In this document: in pieces, positions 7,453-51,996 of the stretch
Layout: every line of letters begins with the position of its first letter
Numbering within the stretch: the first letter of the stretch is position 1
DNA from: an uncultured Desulfosporosinus sp.
GTDB lineage: Bacteria; Bacillota; Desulfitobacteriia; Desulfitobacteriales; Desulfitobacteriaceae
Direction of reading: 5' to 3'
NCBI GenBank assembly: GCA_927405585.1
Contig: CAKMJS010000099.1
Location: 1 to 56,556 of the forward strand
Length of the DNA: 56,556 nucleotides
Translations under genes and position numbers: made by a program
Notes under the pieces: generated by a model
Database searches by the model: none
The model's input: the letters and a program-made list of their open reading frames with translations, nothing else
Told to the model about the DNA's origin: nothing

Positions 7453-8895
7453 GTGGAGTTCACCAAGTTATTTACTCAAACAGAAGTCGAACGCGTTCAT
7501 GAAGCTTCATTAGAAATCCTTGAGAACGTGGGGATGTTGGTACGTAATGAAAAAGCCCTCGATATTTTTGCTAAAAATGGTTGTCAAGTTGACATGGAGA
7601 CCATGATGGTAAAATTTCCTCGTCAAGTGGTAGAAAAGGCACGACAGACTTTTGTGCCCTCGTATACCTTTACTGCCCAAGACCCAAAATTTGATGTAAC
7701 GATGCCTGGCGATCGTCCAATTGTCGTGACAGGAAGTTCTGCTCCCAATATTATTGATCCAAAAACTGGAGAAGAACGAAGAGCTACCTCTAGTGATATC
7801 GCAAATATTGCCTATTTAATTAATGAATTGCCTGGCTTTGATGTCTTTTCGATCTCAACTTTGGCGGACGATGCTCCTGAAGGTCAGTTCAGCATGTCTC
7901 GATTTTATCCTGCCTTGAAAAATTGTAAGAAACCGGTACGCAGTAACACCCCGAACATGGATGACCTTAAAACGGTTTTGGAGTTAGGTGCCTTAATTGC
8001 AGGGAGTGAAGAAGCTTATCGTCAACGTCCATTTATTAATCATCATTACTGCCCAGTTGTTTCACCCTTAACCTTCGATGTGGAGTCGACAGAAGCAGTT
8101 ATTTATCTGATTGAACAAGGATTACCAGTGTACGGAACGATTGTTCCAAACGCGGGTATGACTTCTCCACTTAGCTTGATGGGGACATTGACGCTCGGTA
8201 ATGCAGAGTTCCTAGGCCTGGCAACCTTAATTCAGATGATTCGTCCCGGAGCCCCCATGATTTATGCAGTACTGTCCACTGTGGCTGATATGCGTACGGG
8301 AGCTTATGCACCAGGCGCCATCGAGACAGGGATGATGCAAATGGCACATACTGAGATGGCAAGATTCTATAATGTACCGTCCGGCGGCTATATTGGCTTG
8401 ACAAATGCTCATTCCAACGATGCGCAATCAGGTTATGAGACCGGAATGAACACGACAGGCGCCTTGCTTGCTGGTGCAGATTTGTTCAATATGGGTGGGC
8501 TTTTAGGAAGTCTGATGGCCTTTGACTTCGGTAAAGCCGTGATCGATAATGAAATCGCTTTAATGCTCAAACGCATGAAAAAAGGGTATGAATACAGCGA
8601 AGAAAACTTGTGCTTAGATCTAATTGCCAAAATTGGACCTGGCGGTAGTTACATGGACACAGACCATACAATGAAAAATATGCGTTCCATCGCTGTTCTT
8701 CCGAAAGTTGCGACGAGGGAAATGCGCCGTCGTTGGGAAGATCAAGGAAAACCGGACGCTCATAGTCGCGCCATGAAAGAAGCTAACAAAATTTTAAGTA
8801 AGCCTAACAAATCCCGCTTCACAGAGGAATTGGATACAAAAGTACGTGGACACTTCCCAGGGCTGGTCGCTGGAGATGTGGATTGGAGTCTGTAG
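7453..8895 (+). CDS. MttB-superfamily methyltransferase without pyrrolysine
   Basis: 480 residues with the full trimethylamine methyltransferase fold and no amber codon. The pyrrolysine position of true MttB is occupied by Leu in the segment IGLTNAHSNDAQSGYE. Non-pyrrolysine members characterised elsewhere demethylate quaternary amines such as glycine betaine (MtgB of Desulfitobacterium), proline betaine or carnitine. A quaternary amine is therefore the likely substrate, with glycine betaine favoured by the MtgA-like gene two positions downstream. The start is GTG with GAAAGGGG upstream. The partner corrinoid protein follows after about 120 bases. It ends in TAG. The exact substrate cannot be called from sequence. 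Confidence 0.93.
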   Translation: MEFTKLFTQTEVERVHEASLEILENVGMLVRNEKALDIFAKNGCQVDMETMMVKFPRQVVEKARQTFVPSYTFTAQDPKFDVTMPGDRPIVVTGSSAPNIIDPKTGEERRATSSDIANIAYLINELPGFDVFSISTLADDAPEGQFSMSRFYPALKNCKKPVRSNTPNMDDLKTVLELGALIAGSEEAYRQRPFINHHYCPVVSPLTFDVESTEAVIYLIEQGLPVYGTIVPNAGMTSPLSLMGTLTLGNAEFLGLATLIQMIRPGAPMIYAVLSTVADMRTGAYAPGAIETGMMQMAHTEMARFYNVPSGGYIGLTNAHSNDAQSGYETGMNTTGALLAGADLFNMGGLLGSLMAFDFGKAVIDNEIALMLKRMKKGYEYSEENLCLDLIAKIGPGGSYMDTDHTMKNMRSIAVLPKVATREMRRRWEDQGKPDAHSRAMKEANKILSKPNKSRFTEELDTKVRGHFPGLVAGDVDWSL

Positions 8896-43553: not shown

Positions 43554-43569
43554 TGGCAACAAAATTGCA
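43554..43569 (+). promoter_or_regulatory. Putative sigma-54 promoter for the BCCT gene
   Basis: TGGCAACAAAATTGCA has GG and GC ten bases apart and perfect TGGCA and TTGCA blocks. The leader of about 140 bases contains an AAAGGAGG followed by a six-codon ORF (43627-43647), and ends at the BCCT RBS AGGAGGAG. It is partnered with the tandem UAS at 43285-43322. Confidence 0.75.
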
Positions 43570-43723: not shown

Positions 43724-45352
43724 GTGGCTCAACAGAAGGAAATAGAATCAGAAATTGCGAAAATTAATCCTGTTGTTTTTTGGGGTAGTGTACTTTGTTG
43801 TTTAGTGTTTTATGTACCTTTGGTTATCTTTCAACAAGATGCTCAAGCAGTCATTGCAGTGGCAATGCATGCGATCACTTATAGTCTGGACTGGCTTTGG
43901 GAAGGTATTGCCTTCGGTGGAATAATCTTCTTGGCATGGTTGGCCTTTGGGCGTTATGGTAACGTTAAATTGGGTGGACCGGATGAAAAACCGGAGTTTT
44001 CGACTTTTACATGGATTGCCATGTTCGTCTGCGGTGGAATCGGCGCCGGCCTAGTTTACTGGACCATGGTAGAACCAATATTTTACCTCAAATTTCCTCC
44101 TTTCTGGGCGGAACCATTTTCTCCTCAAGCAGCTCAATGGGCATTATCCTATGGAATCTTTCACTGGGGTTTTCTAGCGTGGGGTACGTTTGCTATTCCC
44201 GCTGTCGCGTTTTCTTATATGTATTATGTTAGGAAAAAACCATATCTGTATCCTAGCTACGCCTGCCGCGGAGTATTGGGTGACAGAGTGGATGGATGGC
44301 TCGGTAAAGCCATTGATTTGGTGGTCATCGTCGGTTTAGTTGGTGGCGTAGGGACCTCGTTGGGCTTTACCGTACCCCTTCTTTCAGCAATTATTGCCGA
44401 TATGTTAGGTGTTGCTGATTCGATGGCAGTCAAGGCGGGAGTCGCTGTCGTCTGGGCGATGATTTTTGGCTATAGCGCCTACAAAGGATTGTATTCGGGA
44501 ATTGCGAAACTCTCGACCTTTACTGCCTATGCTTGTTTTGTATTATTAGCTTTCGTACTCGTTGTGGGTCCTACTTCGTTCCTTTTATCCTTCTATTTTG
44601 ACAATCTAGGAATGCTGTTTCAAAACTTTTTCCGAATGAGTCTTTATACTGACCCCATCACCAAATCTGGTTTTCCCCAGGATTGGACAGTTTTTTATTG
44701 GGCTTGGTGGTATGCTTGGGCAATCTATATCGGTCTTTTTGCGACAAGGATTTCCCGTGGACGTAGCATTAAGGAATTGATATTGGCGATGGTCCTTGTA
44801 GGAACCTTTGGTTCTTCTCTATTCTACCTGGCTTTTGGTGGATATGCTTCCCATCTGCAACTGATCGTAGGGGTTCCTTTAGATATGATTCTTAAAGAAT
44901 CTGGTGGACCTGCTATGATCTTAGCAGTTCTAAAAACTCTTCCACTCCAATGGTTATTCATGCCTTTCTTTGTAATAGTTATGTTTATATTCCAAGGTAC
45001 GAGTATTGATTCTAATGCTTATACGATGGCGATGATCGGTTGCAAAGAAATTCGCGCTGGTCAAGAGCCTCCAAAGTGGTCCAGAATCTTTTGGTCAGTT
45101 CTGATACTCTTCGTAACCTTAGCGTTGCTTTTGGTAGGAGGAATGGAAGTAGTTAAGTTATCCTCCGTACTAACCAGTGTGCCGATTTTGTTTATCGTTG
45201 TTATATTGGCCCTTTCTACGGTTAGATGGCTTCGTGAAGATTTTGGGGTCGGTCAAATGATGACAACAACTAAATATGATGATGTTAATGCGAATCCTGC
45301 ACACGTTGATCCATCAATAAGCTCACAGAAGAACATAAATAGTAATGTGTAA
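43724..45352 (+). CDS. BCCT-family transporter (betaine/carnitine/choline type)
   Basis: 542 residues with about twelve helices. The family signature is intact: the glycine-rich GGIGAGLVYWTMVEP of helix 3, and DWTVFYWAWWYAWAIYIGLFATRISRGRS with its aromatic box for quaternary ammonium groups, followed by FGSSLFYLAFGG. It imports quaternary amines such as glycine betaine, carnitine or choline; the precise substrate is not readable. The start is GTG behind AGGAGGAG. It is convergent with the sigma-54 activator and shares UAS elements with two methyltransferase genes, so it probably feeds their substrate. Confidence 0.94.
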   Translation: MAQQKEIESEIAKINPVVFWGSVLCCLVFYVPLVIFQQDAQAVIAVAMHAITYSLDWLWEGIAFGGIIFLAWLAFGRYGNVKLGGPDEKPEFSTFTWIAMFVCGGIGAGLVYWTMVEPIFYLKFPPFWAEPFSPQAAQWALSYGIFHWGFLAWGTFAIPAVAFSYMYYVRKKPYLYPSYACRGVLGDRVDGWLGKAIDLVVIVGLVGGVGTSLGFTVPLLSAIIADMLGVADSMAVKAGVAVVWAMIFGYSAYKGLYSGIAKLSTFTAYACFVLLAFVLVVGPTSFLLSFYFDNLGMLFQNFFRMSLYTDPITKSGFPQDWTVFYWAWWYAWAIYIGLFATRISRGRSIKELILAMVLVGTFGSSLFYLAFGGYASHLQLIVGVPLDMILKESGGPAMILAVLKTLPLQWLFMPFFVIVMFIFQGTSIDSNAYTMAMIGCKEIRAGQEPPKWSRIFWSVLILFVTLALLLVGGMEVVKLSSVLTSVPILFIVVILALSTVRWLREDFGVGQMMTTTKYDDVNANPAHVDPSISSQKNINSNV

Positions 45353-45469: not shown

Positions 45470-46888
45470 TTAAGATTCTTGACGGGCAGTATTATTTTGT
45501 TTATAAGAGCGTACAATTCGGGTTACTCTACTTTGGCTGATATTAAGTGTGTTTGCCACTTTATAAGAGCTTCTCAACTCATTATACAACCGAATAATAA
45601 TAACCTCTTCATCACTAACTTTCAGGAGATTTTTCCATTTAGATAGCTCATCCTCTATAAGATTGGTATTGGAGAGAGGCTGAAGTTTGAAAATCTTGCT
45701 AGGCAAATGTTCAGGTAGTATTTTTCCTTCTGGAATGGTTACGACTATCCGTTCCGCTAAGTGATCCATTTCTCGAATATTGCCCGGCCAAGAATAATTC
45801 TTGAGAATTTCTAGACATCGAGGATCGAATTTATGAGTGTATTTATAATGGGAGTCATGTTTATTTAAAAAGTATTCTAACAAGGGTATAATATCTTCGT
45901 TTCTTTCTCTTAATGGTGGAGGTTCTATCTCAACAACACTTAGCCGATAATATAGATCTTCTCGGAACTTACCTTCTTTAATCAGTTGAGGTAAATCTCG
46001 ATTGGTAGCGGCAATAATTCGAATGTCGATTGTTTTATGCTCTTTTCCACCCACTGGAAGGAAGCGGTGCTCCTGAATAAGCTCAAGCAATTTGGCTTGG
46101 ATTCCTAAAGGGATCTCGCCGACTTCATCGAGAAAGAGGGTTCCACCATTAGCTAATTCCACTAAACCCACTTTGCCGTATTTATCGGCTCCAGTGAAGG
46201 CACCCCGACAATAACCGAATAGTTCTGATTCTAAGAGGTGTTCTGGAATAGTTGCCCCATTGATACAGATAAAGGGTCCTTCTTTTCGAGGACTCATTTT
46301 GTGAATGTCCATAGCCATAACGTTTTTTCCTGTACCGGACTCTCCGAGGATTAATACCGTTGAATTAACCAAAGCCACCCTTTGTAACATTGCCAAACAT
46401 GATTTCATTTTATTGTTGGTAAACGAGTAGCCACTAAAATAGCTGACTTGTTGAACCAATTCAGCAACTTTATTTTTATAAAGGTTGACAAGTTTTTTTG
46501 TTTTATCTAAATCATGTTTAAGTTGCTCGATTTGAGTAATGTCTCGACTGTTCATAACTATGAATTCTATTTCACCTTCACTATCAAAGACAGGCGTAGC
46601 GGTTACAACGAGATTAATTCCTAACCTTGTTTTTTGTTCTAAGGTGACAACTTTTTTTGCTTTAAATACTACTGGAGCAAGGACAGGGGAGTAATAACCT
46701 TCGCTGGTTAATTCATAAACAGTTTTTCCAATTACCTCGGTAGGATTTAGACCATAATTCTTGAAACAGGCCTCATTAACGTAAATTACAATACAGTTGC
46801 GGTCAACGACAAAAATTTCATCAAAGGAATTGTCCAATATCTTTTTAAAGTCATTTTGTTTTAAACTGCGTTTATCAATATTTGGCAT
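45470..46888 (-). CDS. PAS-domain sigma-54-dependent transcriptional activator
   Basis: 472 residues. The N-terminal PAS domain (about 12-115) has IFVVDRNCIVIYVNEACFKNYG. A short helical linker follows. The AAA+ domain has Walker A GESGTGKN, GAFTGA (sigma-54 contact), Walker B GTLFLDEVGE, IRIIAATNRDLP and SWPGNIREMDH. The C-terminal HTH (about 430-465, YKVANTLNISQSRVTRIVRSY) is more like a TyrR-type than a classic Fis end. It lies between the BCCT transporter and the MttB cluster, both of which carry putative sigma-54 promoters and a shared inverted repeat. It is therefore the best candidate to recognise TAAGTCW-N3-WGACTTA. PAS may sense the amine or redox state. Confidence 0.93.
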   Translation of the reverse strand: MPNIDKRSLKQNDFKKILDNSFDEIFVVDRNCIVIYVNEACFKNYGLNPTEVIGKTVYELTSEGYYSPVLAPVVFKAKKVVTLEQKTRLGINLVVTATPVFDSEGEIEFIVMNSRDITQIEQLKHDLDKTKKLVNLYKNKVAELVQQVSYFSGYSFTNNKMKSCLAMLQRVALVNSTVLILGESGTGKNVMAMDIHKMSPRKEGPFICINGATIPEHLLESELFGYCRGAFTGADKYGKVGLVELANGGTLFLDEVGEIPLGIQAKLLELIQEHRFLPVGGKEHKTIDIRIIAATNRDLPQLIKEGKFREDLYYRLSVVEIEPPPLRERNEDIIPLLEYFLNKHDSHYKYTHKFDPRCLEILKNYSWPGNIREMDHLAERIVVTIPEGKILPEHLPSKIFKLQPLSNTNLIEDELSKWKNLLKVSDEEVIIIRLYNELRSSYKVANTLNISQSRVTRIVRSYKQNNTARQES

Positions 46889-47179: not shown

Positions 47180-47195
47180 TGGTATGAAAATTGCA
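47180..47195 (+). promoter_or_regulatory. Putative sigma-54 promoter for the MttB/pyl-MttB operon
   Basis: TGGTATGAAAATTGCA has GG and GC ten bases apart and a perfect TTGCA; it nearly copies the mtgA promoter. The leader would be about 310 bases and include a 19-base hairpin. A second TGGCAC at 47452 has a poor -12 region and is closer to the UAS, so the actual start is uncertain. Confidence 0.5.
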
Positions 47196-47518: not shown

Positions 47519-48952
47519 ATGGGTTTAAAAACGAAGTTAGAAGTTCTGAACAAAGCTGATTTATTTAGAGTCCATGATGCCACCCTGAAAATCCTACGTG
47601 AAACAGGCGTTGTCTTTCATAGTGAGGAAGCGCTTGATTTGTTCAAAAAACATGGAGCTAAAGTAGAAAACAAAACGGTATTTATCTCTCGAGAAATGGT
47701 GGATCAGGCTTTGAGTACTGCGCCTAAAACCTTTCGAATGCGAGCCCGCAACGATAAGTACTCTGTGACGGTAGGAGAAGGATTCCTAGTACAACCGAAT
47801 GTGGGTCCAGTCTATATTCAAGACATCGAGCGGGGTCGGCGTGAAGCTACCTTGGAGGATTATGCCAATATTCAAAAATTGTGTCAAGCTAGTGATGTTG
47901 TTGACTTGGTGGGTACCATTCCTGTTGACCCAAGCGATGTAAATAGAGATGACAAGTTTTTGATGATGATGTATGAGTCACTCAAGAACTCAGATAAACC
48001 TGTCATTGGTTTCTGTGCTCACACTCATCAAGTACGTGAACAGTTAGATATGGTTGAGCTTGCCATGGGCAAGCCTGGTTTTCTCAGGGAAAATCACTGT
48101 ACAGCTGTTTTGGTTAATTCGCTAAGTCCTTTGGCGTATGCGCCTGATACCCTAGAAACTATGATTGAATATGCAAGGCGCAATCAGGTGATCATGCTTG
48201 CTCCCTGCATCATGGCCGGAGTGAGTGGACCTATCTCCCTATTGGGGACAGCAGTTCTCCAGAACACAGAAACGATTGCAGGGTTAGTTCTGGTGCAGTT
48301 GATCAATCCAGGTGCTCCACTTGTCTATGCAACAGCTTCAACCTCGGGTTATATGAAGGAGGCGACGTTCGCAGCTGGGACGCCAGAAGCGATGTTGATC
48401 AATACTGCCAGTTTACAAATGGGATTGGACTTCTATCACTTACCAGTAAGAACCATGTCTGGAATTACTCATTCTAAAATAGTGGATTGTCAAGCAGGGT
48501 ATGAAACCATGCAAAGTTTGATGATGGGTATGATGAGTGGGGCGCATATGTCAGTCCAGAGTCTTGGAGTTTTGGATGCAATCATGACGACCTCTTATGA
48601 GAAGTTCATAATCGATGAAGAACTTGTCAGAAGAGTAAGGCGGATTTCTCAAGGGATTGATACTTCAGATGAAGCCTTAGCCGTCGATATTATTCAAGAA
48701 GTGGGTCATACGGGGAACTATTTATCTCATATGAGTACCTTTGAAAAGTTCCGAACCTTATGGACACCCTCCGTATCAGATTGGGGAAATTATACAGACT
48801 GGAAGCACGCTGGCTCAGAAGATGTCACATTCAAGGCAAACCGCAAGTATAAACAGATTCTGCAAAATGCGCCTGATACCTTACTCGATTCCGAAACGGA
48901 CAAAGAACTCCATGACTACATTGCAAAGGTCAGCTCCAGTCGCTCGTCATAG
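47519..48952 (+). CDS. MttB-superfamily methyltransferase without pyrrolysine (second copy)
   Basis: 477 residues, full length and with no amber codon. The pyrrolysine position is Ile in TMSGITHSKIVDCQAGYE. The N terminus LEVLNKADLFRVHDATLKILRETG is the family dimer segment, and the barrel includes NSLSPLAYAPDTLETMIEYARR and PLVYATASTSGYM. It should demethylate a quaternary amine or another methylated substrate and pass the methyl to the corrinoid protein at 49058. It differs clearly from the copy at 7453, so a different substrate is likely. It follows the UAS/sigma-54 region and heads an operon that includes the pyrrolysine-type MttB. Confidence 0.93.
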   Translation: MGLKTKLEVLNKADLFRVHDATLKILRETGVVFHSEEALDLFKKHGAKVENKTVFISREMVDQALSTAPKTFRMRARNDKYSVTVGEGFLVQPNVGPVYIQDIERGRREATLEDYANIQKLCQASDVVDLVGTIPVDPSDVNRDDKFLMMMYESLKNSDKPVIGFCAHTHQVREQLDMVELAMGKPGFLRENHCTAVLVNSLSPLAYAPDTLETMIEYARRNQVIMLAPCIMAGVSGPISLLGTAVLQNTETIAGLVLVQLINPGAPLVYATASTSGYMKEATFAAGTPEAMLINTASLQMGLDFYHLPVRTMSGITHSKIVDCQAGYETMQSLMMGMMSGAHMSVQSLGVLDAIMTTSYEKFIIDEELVRRVRRISQGIDTSDEALAVDIIQEVGHTGNYLSHMSTFEKFRTLWTPSVSDWGNYTDWKHAGSEDVTFKANRKYKQILQNAPDTLLDSETDKELHDYIAKVSSSRSS

Positions 48953-49057
48953 TTATCGTTGTTATACCCGAAAGCGGGTTAATAAATGGAAGTCTATCTA
49001 ATTATGTTCCTGGATAATTTACTAAAATTTGAGCTAAAGCATAAGGAGGATCTTAAA

Positions 49058-49690
49058 ATGAGTGATTTTGATCAATTGGCAGATTATGTTTTCAAAGGGA
49101 ATGCCGCTGCGGTAAAAGACTTGACCCGGAAAATGGTGGATGCAGGTGGCAACCCAATGGAGATTATCTCAAAGGGTCTGCTAGTAGGGATGGATATTGT
49201 TACTCCAAAATTCAAAGCAGGCGATATGTATGTACCAGAGGTCATGATGTCTGCTCGAGCTTTAGCAGAGGGTATGAATATTGTGAAACCACTCCTTACA
49301 GGAGCAGAAATCGCCGTTAACAAGACCATTATTATTGGGACTGTCTCAGGAGACCTTCACGATATCGGAAAGAATCTTGTTGTCTTAATTATGGAAAGCG
49401 GTGGCTTTAATGTCATTGACCTGGGAGTCGATGTATCTCCGGAGAAATTTGTGGCAGCGATTAAAGAGCATAATGCCAAGATAGTTGGTTTGTCAGCTTT
49501 GCTGACGACAACAATGCTTAATATGAAAGCGACAATCGAATTAATTACTGAAGAAGGATTACGTGATAGCGTAAAGATTTTAGTTGGAGGCGCACCTGTT
49601 TCCCAAAGTTTTGCTAATGAAATTGGTGCCGATGGTTACTGTGCTGATGCCATGTCTGCGAAAGAAATGGCCTCCACACTATTAAACTAA
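49058..49690 (+). CDS. mttC: Corrinoid methyl carrier protein (MttC-like)
   Basis: 210 residues from the ATG at 49058, preceded by AAGGAGGATC; a longer in-frame start at 48986 has no RBS. The cap domain has GMDIVTPKFKAGDMYVPEVMMSARAL, and the B12 domain has GDLHDIGKNLV (cobalt-ligating His), DLGVDVS and VGGAPVS. It lies between the two MttB genes, so it may accept methyl groups from both. It is closest in sequence to the carrier at 9015. Confidence 0.94.
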   Translation: MSDFDQLADYVFKGNAAAVKDLTRKMVDAGGNPMEIISKGLLVGMDIVTPKFKAGDMYVPEVMMSARALAEGMNIVKPLLTGAEIAVNKTIIIGTVSGDLHDIGKNLVVLIMESGGFNVIDLGVDVSPEKFVAAIKEHNAKIVGLSALLTTTMLNMKATIELITEEGLRDSVKILVGGAPVSQSFANEIGADGYCADAMSAKEMASTLLN

Positions 49691-49763
49691 TTCGGCGAAA
49701 ATCATTTCCACTCCCTATCTAAGGTTCCAGATAGATAACAAATAATAAGTAGAGGTGAGTAAT

Positions 49764-51236
49764 TTGAGGACAGATGTTCAAGCAGGAGTGTCGAAATTAG
49801 AGGGCTTCGGACTTAATGTATTTTCGGAGGATGAACTCTATGACATCCACAGTGGAACACTAGAGGTCTTAGAGAAAACAGGGATTAAAGTAGAATCCAA
49901 AGAAGCCCTAGAAATTTATGCTACAGGAGGAGCTATTGTTGACTTCAAAACGGGTGTAGTAAAGATTCCAGGCTATATCGTGGAAGATGCGATACGTTCC
50001 GCCCCAAATACAGTGTTGTTGGCCGGGCGAAATCCGAAACATGATATTGTTCTAGGTGGCAAAAGAGTTCATTTCATTAATTTCGGTGAAGGAGTCTCAA
50101 TTATCGACCCATATACCAAAGAGTATCGGAAAACTACTAAGCAGGATGTCGCTAATATTGCACGCTTCTGTGATGCTATGGAAGAGATGGATGCGGTTTT
50201 ACGTCCTGTAGCACCTCAGGATGTGCCTCCTGAGACTGCAGTAGTTTATAACGCTGAGGCACTTTTCAATAATACTTCAAAGCATGTTTTTATTGGCACT
50301 GACGGTGGAAAGAATTTCAAAAAAGTTTTAAGAATGGCTGCAGCGATCGTTGGTGGGGAAGATAAGCTTCGAGAACGACCCATCTTCTCATGTAACGTAT
50401 GTCCAACAAGTCCGTTGCAATTGATCGGACATTGTACCGATGTTATCATCGAAGGCGCACGAGCTGGTATTGCGGTTAACATATTATCCATGGCTATGGC
50501 GGGTGCTACATCTCCGATTACACTAGCGGGTAGTCTTGTCACTCACAATGCGGAAGTCTTGAGTGGTATTGTCTTGAGCCAACTCACCTGCAAAGGGGCA
50601 CCTGTAATATATGGTAGTTCCACAACAATTATGGATTTACGGTTTGCCACAGCCCCAGTTGGTTCTCCTGAATTGGGTATGATCAATGCAGGCGTAGCAA
50701 AGCTAGCCCAATTCTATTTACTGCCTAGCTGGGTAGCTGGTGGCTAGGTAGATAGTAAAGTTCCAGACGCCCAAGCATCTCATGAGTTTACGATTACCGC
50801 TTTGCTGACAGCGTTGGCAGGTGCCAATCTGATTTATGGAGCAGGTATGTTAGAACTCGGTCTCACCTATGACTATGCTCAAATGGTGATGGATAATGAG
50901 ATGGCTAAGATGATTAAAAAATCGGTTTGCGGGATCAGTGTGTCTGATGAGACATTAGCTATCGATGTTATTAAGCAGGTAGGAACCGCTGGTAACTTTA
51001 TTAGCGAAGAGCACACCTTCAAACATATGCGATCACAATCCAAGAGCAAGGTTATCGACCGTCGAATGAGAGAGGTTTGGCTGGCAGATGGAGGTAAGGA
51101 CTTTACAGAAAGAGCCTATGAAGTAGCTCGGTCCATTTTAGAAGACTATCAACCTGAGTCTTTGCCAGAAAGTGTTCAAGCTGAATTGCGTGCGATTGTC
51201 GAAGAGATAGAAAAAGAGTATGGTGTCAATAGTTAA
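49764..51236 (+). CDS. mttB: Trimethylamine methyltransferase with in-frame amber (pyrrolysine) codon
   Basis: Two open segments in one frame are separated by a single TAG at 50745-50747. Reading TAG as pyrrolysine gives one protein of about 490 residues, the MttB length. The codon falls in [21 protein letters not shown], the site where methanogen and Desulfitobacterium MttB carry pyrrolysine. At the aligned position, the two non-pyrrolysine homologues here have Leu and Ile. The TTG start has GAGGTGA five bases upstream; a GTG at 49755 is possible. Pyrrolysine is the catalytic residue that binds methylamine, so trimethylamine is the likely substrate. pylT and pylSBCD are not in the window. 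A nonsense mutation is the alternative, but the exact placement argues against it. Confidence 0.92.
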
Positions 51237-51323
51237 GTTAACGACCGAATAACTAAATATTAATGATAGTAGTGAGGAGAACGAGCTAACAAATTTAGTT
51301 CTTCTCATTACTAAAAAAATTTT

Positions 51324-51780
51324 ACTTGAAAAATAACTCTGTCGTCCAATGAACGTTGTAAATCTCCATCATGCTTAGGAATCCAAGGGAGATATTTGTT
51401 GAGAGAAACAATCGCCACTTCTTTTGATAAGGAAAACGTCAGTAGTAAAGTTTGACTTTACCGATCCCTTCGTAATCAACTATGACTTCAAAATAACGGC
51501 TATTCCGTTTACGGCAACGTTTTTCTTCTCTTTAGTTTTCATAACTTTAGTCAATTCACGGGCGTTAAGAGATTGCCCATTGTAAGTATAGTTCCGTGAA
51601 TCTTGTCGCACTCCGCAGATCAGGTGCATAGGCTCTTTACCTAAGCCCCGGACCTTTTCAATAAACTCATGACTGCTGAACTAACTATCGACAAGCACAT
51701 AGTTCGGCCGACGAAGAAGGACGTATGTTCTTTCCTGAATCATACCCCACACCCATTCGAAACGTCGGCACAGGGTTTAT
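51324..51780 (-). pseudogene. Decayed IS4-type DDE transposase remnant
   Basis: On the minus strand the reading recovers VWGMIQER, RRPNYVLVDS (catalytic Asp), FSSHEFIEKVRGLGKEPMH, TYNGQSLNARELTKVMKTKEK, RFPYQKKWRLFLSTN and the final YNVHWTTELFFK, which holds the last catalytic Glu. TAG and TGA replace expected Trp-like codons (at LVDS-stop-FSS and in LYY-stop-RF), and frames shift once or more. No intact terminal repeats were found. The rest of the gap (51237-51323 and 51781-51996) holds nothing I can assign. It is non-functional. Confidence 0.82.
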
Positions 51781-51996
51781 ATACAGTACTGGTAGACTTC
51801 TAACAGCTGTAGCTATGGCTGTTGTACCCATGATATACTGAAATTTTAGTTATTCATCATCATTGGTGCGATCTTCCTTTTAGCAGCAATCTCCACTGGG
51901 TTCTGGGGAGAGAGGACTGCGGTGGTTCTCTGATGAAATTGAAGTAAAAATTTTGTATCTCAAGATGATATCCTAAGCAAAACCATTTGAGGAGTT

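Follow-up and report, generated by a model that had tools for sequence, protein, structure and literature searches.

The in-frame TAG of mttB

The gene for the trimethylamine:corrinoid methyltransferase MttB of an uncultured Desulfosporosinus sp. is interrupted by an in-frame TAG, in a genome in which UAG still ends ordinary genes. The locus raises the question whether this codon is read as pyrrolysine (Pyl) and, if so, what sets its meaning. The Pyl-type mttB lies on the forward strand at positions 49755-51236 of the window, the 56,556-nt stretch of DNA that was analysed. With GTG as the listed start, it yields 493 residues via the TAG at 50745-50747, the only internal stop of the frame. An earlier note on this DNA had joined the two halves in one frame across the codon, and the read-through product indeed matched TIGR02369 from end to end (model positions 1-469 of 469) with 760.6 bits, passing the curated cut-off of 525. 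The note had also seen the known pyrrolysine site in the surroundings, PSWVAGG-[TAG]-VDSKVPDAQ. The best PDB relatives were 7xcm (432 bits) and 7xcl (429.4 bits), the MttB of Methanosarcina barkeri; the homology extends over the full length, although that host is an archaeon. In the alignment, the window TAG falls on the modified residue of 7xcl (shown as X). This residue is named Pyl334 in the available part of the structure paper (PMC9842639). The two MttB paralogues of the window carry Ile (47519-48952) and Leu (7453-8895) in the Pyl column, as the note had read them.

Among the window gene and 79 related loci, the codon in this column was TAG in 79 and TGG in one; since the related loci were the top 79 among 415 matches, found with patterns built from three TAG genes, the sample is tilted to Pyl-type genes. 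The single TGG copy stands in tandem with a TAG copy, and this pair, in Candidatus Acetocimmeria pyornia (L052), presents a natural Pyl/Trp difference. Closest among the named relatives were Desulfosporosinus genes with 88-92 % identity. The dN was 0.049 before and 0.049 after the TAG in comparison to L034, and 0.043 and 0.040 in comparison to L044. Purifying selection is thus strong on both halves, and the second half has to be seen as working protein. Sense codons in relatives together with decay elsewhere in the gene, a pattern that the note had named as contrary to recoding, were not seen: 78 of the 79 related loci have TAG and the gene is intact.

The distant pyl locus and further TAG genes

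The note had placed the pyl genes outside the window, and a search of the window for tRNA genes indeed found none; PylSc is not on its contig. In the assembly (4.48 Mb in 181 contigs, 98.6 % complete), the search that it proposed for pylT, a split pylS and pylBCD recovered all of them on one other contig (C81). Next to a tRNA-Pyl(CUA), this contig has profile matches to PylSc (370 bits), PylB (519.5), PylC (462.2), PylD (295.7) and PylSn (131), each above the NCBIfam cut-off. The pyl genes adjoin a corrinoid protein gene and another TAG-containing mttB. PylSc matches that of Desulfitobacterium hafniense (3dsq/2zni) with 405 bits over residues 4-277 of 277, and a split PylS with pylBCD is described for that species, too, in the accessible text of PMC2933860. 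The present locus differs from the D. hafniense one by separate sigma-54-type sites for pylT-pylSc and pylBCD-pylSn, with kinase-like genes in between. Two such genes (L024:3473-4429 and L024:4550-5506) sit between pylSc and pylB; the one that was searched reached 149.7 bits with NCBIfam GntI, under the cut-off. Similar kinase-like genes were present in 14 of 15 loci with a long pylSc-pylB gap.

The genome has 18 full-length MttB-family genes. Three of them contain one TAG, always in the column of the window gene, which bears out the note's view that a random nonsense mutation was unlikely to land there; in the remaining 15, the Pyl column shows V, I, L, M, Q, C or Y. The dimethylamine methyltransferase gene mtbB also has one TAG, so that four methylamine methyltransferase genes are TAG-interrupted (the window mttB, two more mttB and one mtbB). 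A search of the genome for mtmB (PF05369) found none. That the window TAG is a nonsense mutation, leaving a pseudogene or a protein of 330 residues only, can practically be dismissed: it is suggested by the mechanical ORF list, which shows two separate ORFs, but opposed by the conserved column, the equal dN on both sides of the TAG, the full pyl machinery and the three sister genes with an in-frame TAG. Insertion of an ordinary amino acid by near-cognate or generic amber suppression is hardly more credible, since the genome encodes a dedicated tRNA-Pyl with its synthetase and the conserved codon is TAG, not a sense codon; nothing specific speaks for suppression beyond the one relative with TGG (Trp) in one of its two tandem copies. 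The intact gene, the conserved TAG and the pyl machinery support the note's reading of a recoded codon. The TAG at 50745-50747 is very probably the pyrrolysine codon of a working trimethylamine methyltransferase, as far as genes can indicate an incorporation. In itself this finding is of a known kind, because pyrrolysine in Desulfosporosinus has been published: D. orientis and D. meridiei are listed for it in the available part of PMC3639795, and the window mttB is one more case.

In 45 genomes of the same family, PylSc was above the cut-off in 27 and a Pyl-type MttB in 26. Both PylSc and a TAG-containing mttB were present in 23 genomes and neither in 15, while four had PylSc alone and three MttB alone. 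The three MttB-alone genomes are 76-85 % complete; two of the four PylSc-alone genomes are 91-100 % complete. One TAG was present in 50 of the 56 MttB matches above the cut-off in these genomes, and the six without TAG have V, I or Q at the Pyl site. Four genomes (G024, G030, G036, G037) with PylSc above the cut-off had no Pyl-type MttB (E <= 1e-140) and no MtbB (E <= 1e-50). Five others, G016, G010, G020, G028 and G040 (L126-L127, L132-L134, L138-L139, L143-L144, L152-L153), have two or three PylSc genes above the cut-off; their pyl cassettes vary in make-up, and the tRNA-Pyl sequences are clearly distinct.

The mttB operon and its neighbours

The first gene of the window operon (47519-48952, forward strand) encodes a non-Pyl methyltransferase of the MttB superfamily (PF06253, 419.9 bits) with 2qne as closest solved chain. 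Its product scored 348.5 bits against TIGR02369, that of the other window MttB (7453-8895) 375.9 bits, both below the cut-off of 525. The gene at 47519-48952 itself uses TAG as true stop, nine codons ahead of the next in-frame stop, and with this TAG stop it would offer a natural readthrough reporter. It is followed by an mttC-like corrinoid protein gene (48986-49690, forward strand), of which the family is clear although the scores are under every curated cut-off listed (TIGR02370: 200.1 bits, cut-off 215.3; MtgC_2: 210.8 bits, cut-off 370). Divergent to the operon, a PAS-domain sigma-54 activator (Sigma54_activat, 218.5 bits) is encoded on the reverse strand at 45470-46888. A transporter gene of the BCCT family (betaine/carnitine/choline; PF02028, 479.5 bits) lies at 43724-45352 on the forward strand and has a sigma-54-like site, by motif, at 43554-43568. 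Downstream of mttB follows a gap of 760 nt (51237-51996); in eight Desulfosporosinus relatives, the aligned ends are about 130-330 nt apart. The window gap has short frames only and may be a decayed insertion.

Synonymous constraint downstream of the TAG

Substitution rates on both sides of the TAG were not alike at silent sites. In those five of eight comparisons that were unsaturated, dS after the TAG was about half of that before, or less, while dN was not reduced; synonymous constraint was therefore analysed. It is strong in about 90 codons 3' of the TAG (50748-51017, forward strand), where the mismatch at 4-fold sites among eight orthologues was 0.193 compared to 0.478 in the rest of the gene. 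Column permutation gave no value as low in 5000 trials, for the window-type and the C81-type group alike. Along the gene, the eight window-type orthologues had a mismatch of 0.464 before the TAG, 0.187, 0.233 and 0.220 in successive parts up to codon 100, and 0.488 beyond; the 14 C81-type orthologues had 0.529, then 0.240, 0.291 and 0.225, and 0.459 beyond. No drop appeared in the non-Pyl MttB that is encoded in the same operon of these eight strains (0.531; 0.551, 0.469, 0.538; 0.592). In more distant mttB pairs the dip was small. The mtbB genes belong to a non-homologous family; in 36 of them the mismatch was 0.19-0.42 in codons 20-30 after the TAG versus 0.54-0.75 upstream, as ranges over four identity classes, with a weaker drop in codons 0-20. 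This set comprises 36 loci. L204 was excluded because its match does not extend past the TAG; L033 repeats the gene of L025, and L203 is partial. In alignment A2, L036 begins 3 nt late.

An overlapping gene and recombination were considered as causes of the constraint, and neither found support. Low synonymous divergence could still reflect codon bias, amino-acid composition, recombination or an overlapping gene, and no RNA element at all. In favour of this explanation are the relatedness of close orthologues, which are no independent samples, an antisense frame that runs without a stop in three of the eight window-type sequences, and the lack of generality of the long-range fold signal treated below; it is nevertheless unlikely in view of the sense frames with 5-13 stops, the lack of an antisense frame open in all sequences, the undiminished dN at halved dS, the partner gene without a drop, the drop in the unrelated mtbB within 30 codons after its own TAG, and the covariation between two wobble positions described in the next section. 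The synonymous constraint is present in two groups of Pyl-type mttB and absent from the non-Pyl partner gene; no earlier description of it was found.

A conserved hairpin in the constrained region

Within the constrained stretch, a conserved and covarying RNA hairpin occupies positions 50813-50828 on the forward strand, corresponding to nt 69-84 when the U of UAG is nt 1. Its stem RUURG/CYAAY forms five base pairs around the loop CAGGNG, which an additional C-G pair can reduce to a tetraloop. A piece of 26 nt with the hairpin folds with -10 kcal/mol, a value reached by six of 200 shuffles; for the first 100 nt starting at the UAG, folding was only moderately better than that of shuffles (15 of 200 as low). 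Of 74 Pyl mttB sequences in which the amino-acid motif is right, 57 have the four inner pairs; of 14 non-Pyl homologues with that motif, only one does (Fisher 1.1e-6, with related sequences counted). The remaining 17 of the 74 lack the hairpin. The leucine codon of the stem is TTR in 66 of the 74 Pyl sequences versus 779 of 2323 leucine codons around, and in the non-Pyl set in 8 of 14 versus 217 of 461.

Many of the mttB sequences in these tests are related and not independent. In the 67 sequences outside the two Desulfosporosinus-type groups, four pairs formed in 39 versus 30.2 expected, a count reached in none of 2000 shuffles of synonymous codons by column. For 66 distinct rows, 80.0 % of the cells pair versus 76.4 % after shuffling (0 of 500 as high), and the covariation score was 0.141 versus 0.094 (0 of 500). 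In the same rows, two of the five measures gave no signal, the number of pairs with a change on both sides (two; 359 of 500 shuffles as high) and that of pair types (five; 413 of 500). With the pairing slid by +3, the covariation score was similar (0.146), with 28.2 % paired. In the outer pair, the third positions of an alanine and an asparagine codon (Ala3 x Asn3) face each other, both free to vary; the combinations were G-C 22, G-T 4, A-C 1 and A-T 15 (Fisher 5.4e-7). After thinning to below 85 % identity the counts were 11, 2, 1 and 7 (p = 0.002), and for ten other third positions p was at least 0.013. The table holds 42 of the 50 rows with a TTR leucine codon, 19 of 69 rows being without this codon; eight rows with C or T at Ala3 stand outside the table, and none of them is paired there. 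Alignment A3 comprises 73 of 80 sequences; L042, L044, L045, L056, L087 and L092 are not included, and L052 is without TAG.

The hairpin differs from the Rfam structure of mttB. The window mttB matches the Rfam family PYLIS_3 (RF02510; pyrrolysine insertion sequence of mttB) at 50745-50844 on the forward strand with 89.3 bits, above the gathering score of 38, but the hairpin is outside the base pairs of PYLIS_3, and three of its five pairs fail in the PYLIS_3 consensus. Bacterial mttB support the hairpin and not the pairs of the family: in 90 distinct sequences the PYLIS_3 pairs had a paired fraction of 0.757 versus 0.761 shuffled (156 of 200 shuffles as high) and no excess of covariation (140 of 200 as high), whereas nt 69-84 in the same sequences reached 0.824 versus 0.788. 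The mtbB of this genome matches PYLIS_2 (RF02509) above the gathering score. The hairpin of the mtbB set starts at nt 74, with 91 % of the cells paired versus 84 % shuffled (0 of 300 as high), and the pairs agree with PYLIS_2. In the mtbB genes (L025:9821-9838; loci L198-L203, L205-L233), GGAGATCTGGT begins at nt 79, with the first letter of the TAG as nt 1, in 29 of the 35 sequences that are long enough, by our count; it is conserved beyond the requirement of the protein.

The alifold consensus of 11 orthologues over 127 columns contained no pair changed on both sides. A long fold signal over 285 nt, with a mean z of -2.66 and -2.03, was seen in the two Desulfosporosinus groups; since it was unconfirmed in 72 further mttB (273 nt, 15 shuffles each; -1.07 versus -0.72 upstream, p = 0.13), a long-range fold is not claimed. 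Two side tracks were discarded: RF02957 proved not to be a Pyl RNA family, and the best MttB match (L001), with a 'TAA inside', has its TAA as normal C-terminal stop, not as internal codon.

Judged by its base pairing, the hairpin at nt 69-84 is quite probably a real RNA element. A role in decoding may be proposed tentatively. With the UAG in its A site, a ribosome should not yet reach a hairpin at this distance. Because of this distance, factor binding or protection of the mRNA is the more likely action, rather than a direct contact of the SECIS type. In Methanosarcina mtmB, PYLIS was not essential, yet the full-length product fell without it (passages of PMC2933860). A prediction study saw no sign of a common structure in mttB, as stated in the available part of PMC3639795. 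In the available passages of PMC3639795 and PMC2933860, no description of an mttB hairpin at nt 69-84 was found.

Sigma-54 sites at the pyl and methyltransferase genes

A sigma-54-type -24/-12 site, TGGTATGAAAATTGC, precedes the mttB operon at 47180-47194 on the forward strand. A GGYATGRAAATTGCA block was aligned in all eight regions compared upstream of mttB operons; C replaces the first T in six, leaving the strict motif, defined as TGGN8TTGC, in two. The strict motif is also present 38 nt upstream of the own pylT and, besides the window operon, 5' of the own pylB, of two genes in a cluster on another contig (C64), mtbB included, and of a C81 transporter gene named by eye. Single sites prove little, because the window has 17 such motifs versus 7.89 expected (L025: 5 versus 2.56; L023: 4 versus 2.17). 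The motif lies 18-49 nt upstream in 17 of 34 pylT genes, the own included, on a background of 0.0195 per 150 nt. The other 17 lack a strict motif within 60 nt; in one of them it is 117 nt away, and in 16 there is none within 200 nt. In relatives with several PylSc genes, where tRNA-Pyl starts with GGAGGG, the 200 nt before pylT contain no sigma-54 motif. Aligned over 230 nt, the 17 motif-bearing upstream regions, which were chosen for holding the motif, are diverged except for the sigma-54 element, which extends slightly past the letters that the motif requires. Inspection of these 17 regions by eye revealed no shared activator-binding site 5' of the sigma-54 sites.

Where pylSc is followed by pylB, a site is located between the genes in 15 of 21 loci, the own included; it is present in all 15 with a gap above 300 nt and in none of the six with a gap below 170 nt (L124, L141, L145, L148, L150, L151). 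In L142, L145 and L148, which have no close pylT site, a site precedes the mttB that heads what looks like one operon. The genome encodes RpoN (201 bits), and sigma-54 activators are encoded in the window and at the pyl locus, one each; the PAS-type activator of the C64 cluster was assigned by reading of the sequence only.

UAG terminates 105 of 374 ORFs (28 %) in 559 kb of the own genome; for a pyl-negative relative the count was 33 of 138, for a pyl-positive one 37 of 120 (ORFs of at least 150 aa from a simple greedy caller, with the stops including the few Pyl genes split by TAG). If UAG were always decoded, many proteins would therefore be extended, and the sampled ORFs had no clear excess of back-up stops after UAG. 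As TAG is still an ordinary stop and sigma-54 sites accompany the pyl genes, the reading of UAG is probably conditional. It appears likely that a sigma-54 switch controls the pyl and methyltransferase genes, with methylated amines as the presumed inducing signal. Decoding could instead be always on, the hairpin or codon context alone separating Pyl-UAG from stop-UAG and the sigma-54 sites being incidental. This is quite unlikely: the covarying hairpin near the Pyl codon, the half of the pylT genes without a close motif and the frequency of the motif in window DNA are in accordance with it, but the motif at a narrow distance in the other half exceeds an expectation of about 0.02 per 150 nt, the site recurs between pylSc and pylB, and the expression of the pyl genes in Acetohalobium depends on trimethylamine (TMA), as the available part of PMC11467909 reports.

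For Acetohalobium arabaticum, the accessible text of that paper describes a TMA-dependent, conditional reading of UAG as pyrrolysine, like the one proposed here; the promoter type is unnamed in it, and the sigma-54-type sites are a candidate mechanism. A sigma-54 survey of Clostridia has MttB among the regulated genes, and the word 'pyrrolysine' is absent from its main text as far as available (PMC12316311); the main text of an earlier survey of Clostridiales contains neither pyrrolysine nor trimethylamine (PMC6615313). No paper linking pyrrolysine, sigma-54 and trimethylamine was found in the open literature and the accessible part of broader listings, and no earlier description of sigma-54 sites at pyl genes.

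Two possible layers in the meaning of UAG

In the mechanism that we propose, a split PylRS of PylSc and PylSn would charge tRNA-Pyl(CUA) with the pyrrolysine made by PylBCD, all parts encoded at the distant locus. The pylT, pylB and methyltransferase operons would be transcribed from sigma-54 promoters and would therefore need activators, for which the PAS-type proteins are candidates, probably responding to methylated amines. With methylamines present, tRNA-Pyl, PylSc/PylSn and pyrrolysine would appear together with the methyltransferases that need them. UAG would mean pyrrolysine mainly under these conditions and, without methylamines, a stop after 330 residues. The hairpin at nt 69-84, in a longer constrained stretch, would most likely be a cis element favouring the full-length product. 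We tentatively suggest that two layers set the meaning of UAG, a sigma-54 switch on pylT and pyrrolysine synthesis and the hairpin as true cis element on the mttB mRNA, with a different hairpin at similar distance in mtbB, in a genome in which UAG still ends about a quarter of the ordinary genes.

Mechanical ORF calling splits mttB and mtbB of this genome in two. The hairpin bears on the question whether bacterial pyrrolysine insertion has a cis signal, and it predicts which synonymous changes would lower the yield. If true, the reading of two layers would mean a functional PYLIS in bacterial mttB, for which the available part of PMC3639795 reports no common structure. Were the tRNA gene directly under a sigma-54 promoter, the genetic code would become inducible, and this bears on how the ORFs stopped by UAG, 28 % of the sample, escape extension by tRNA-Pyl.
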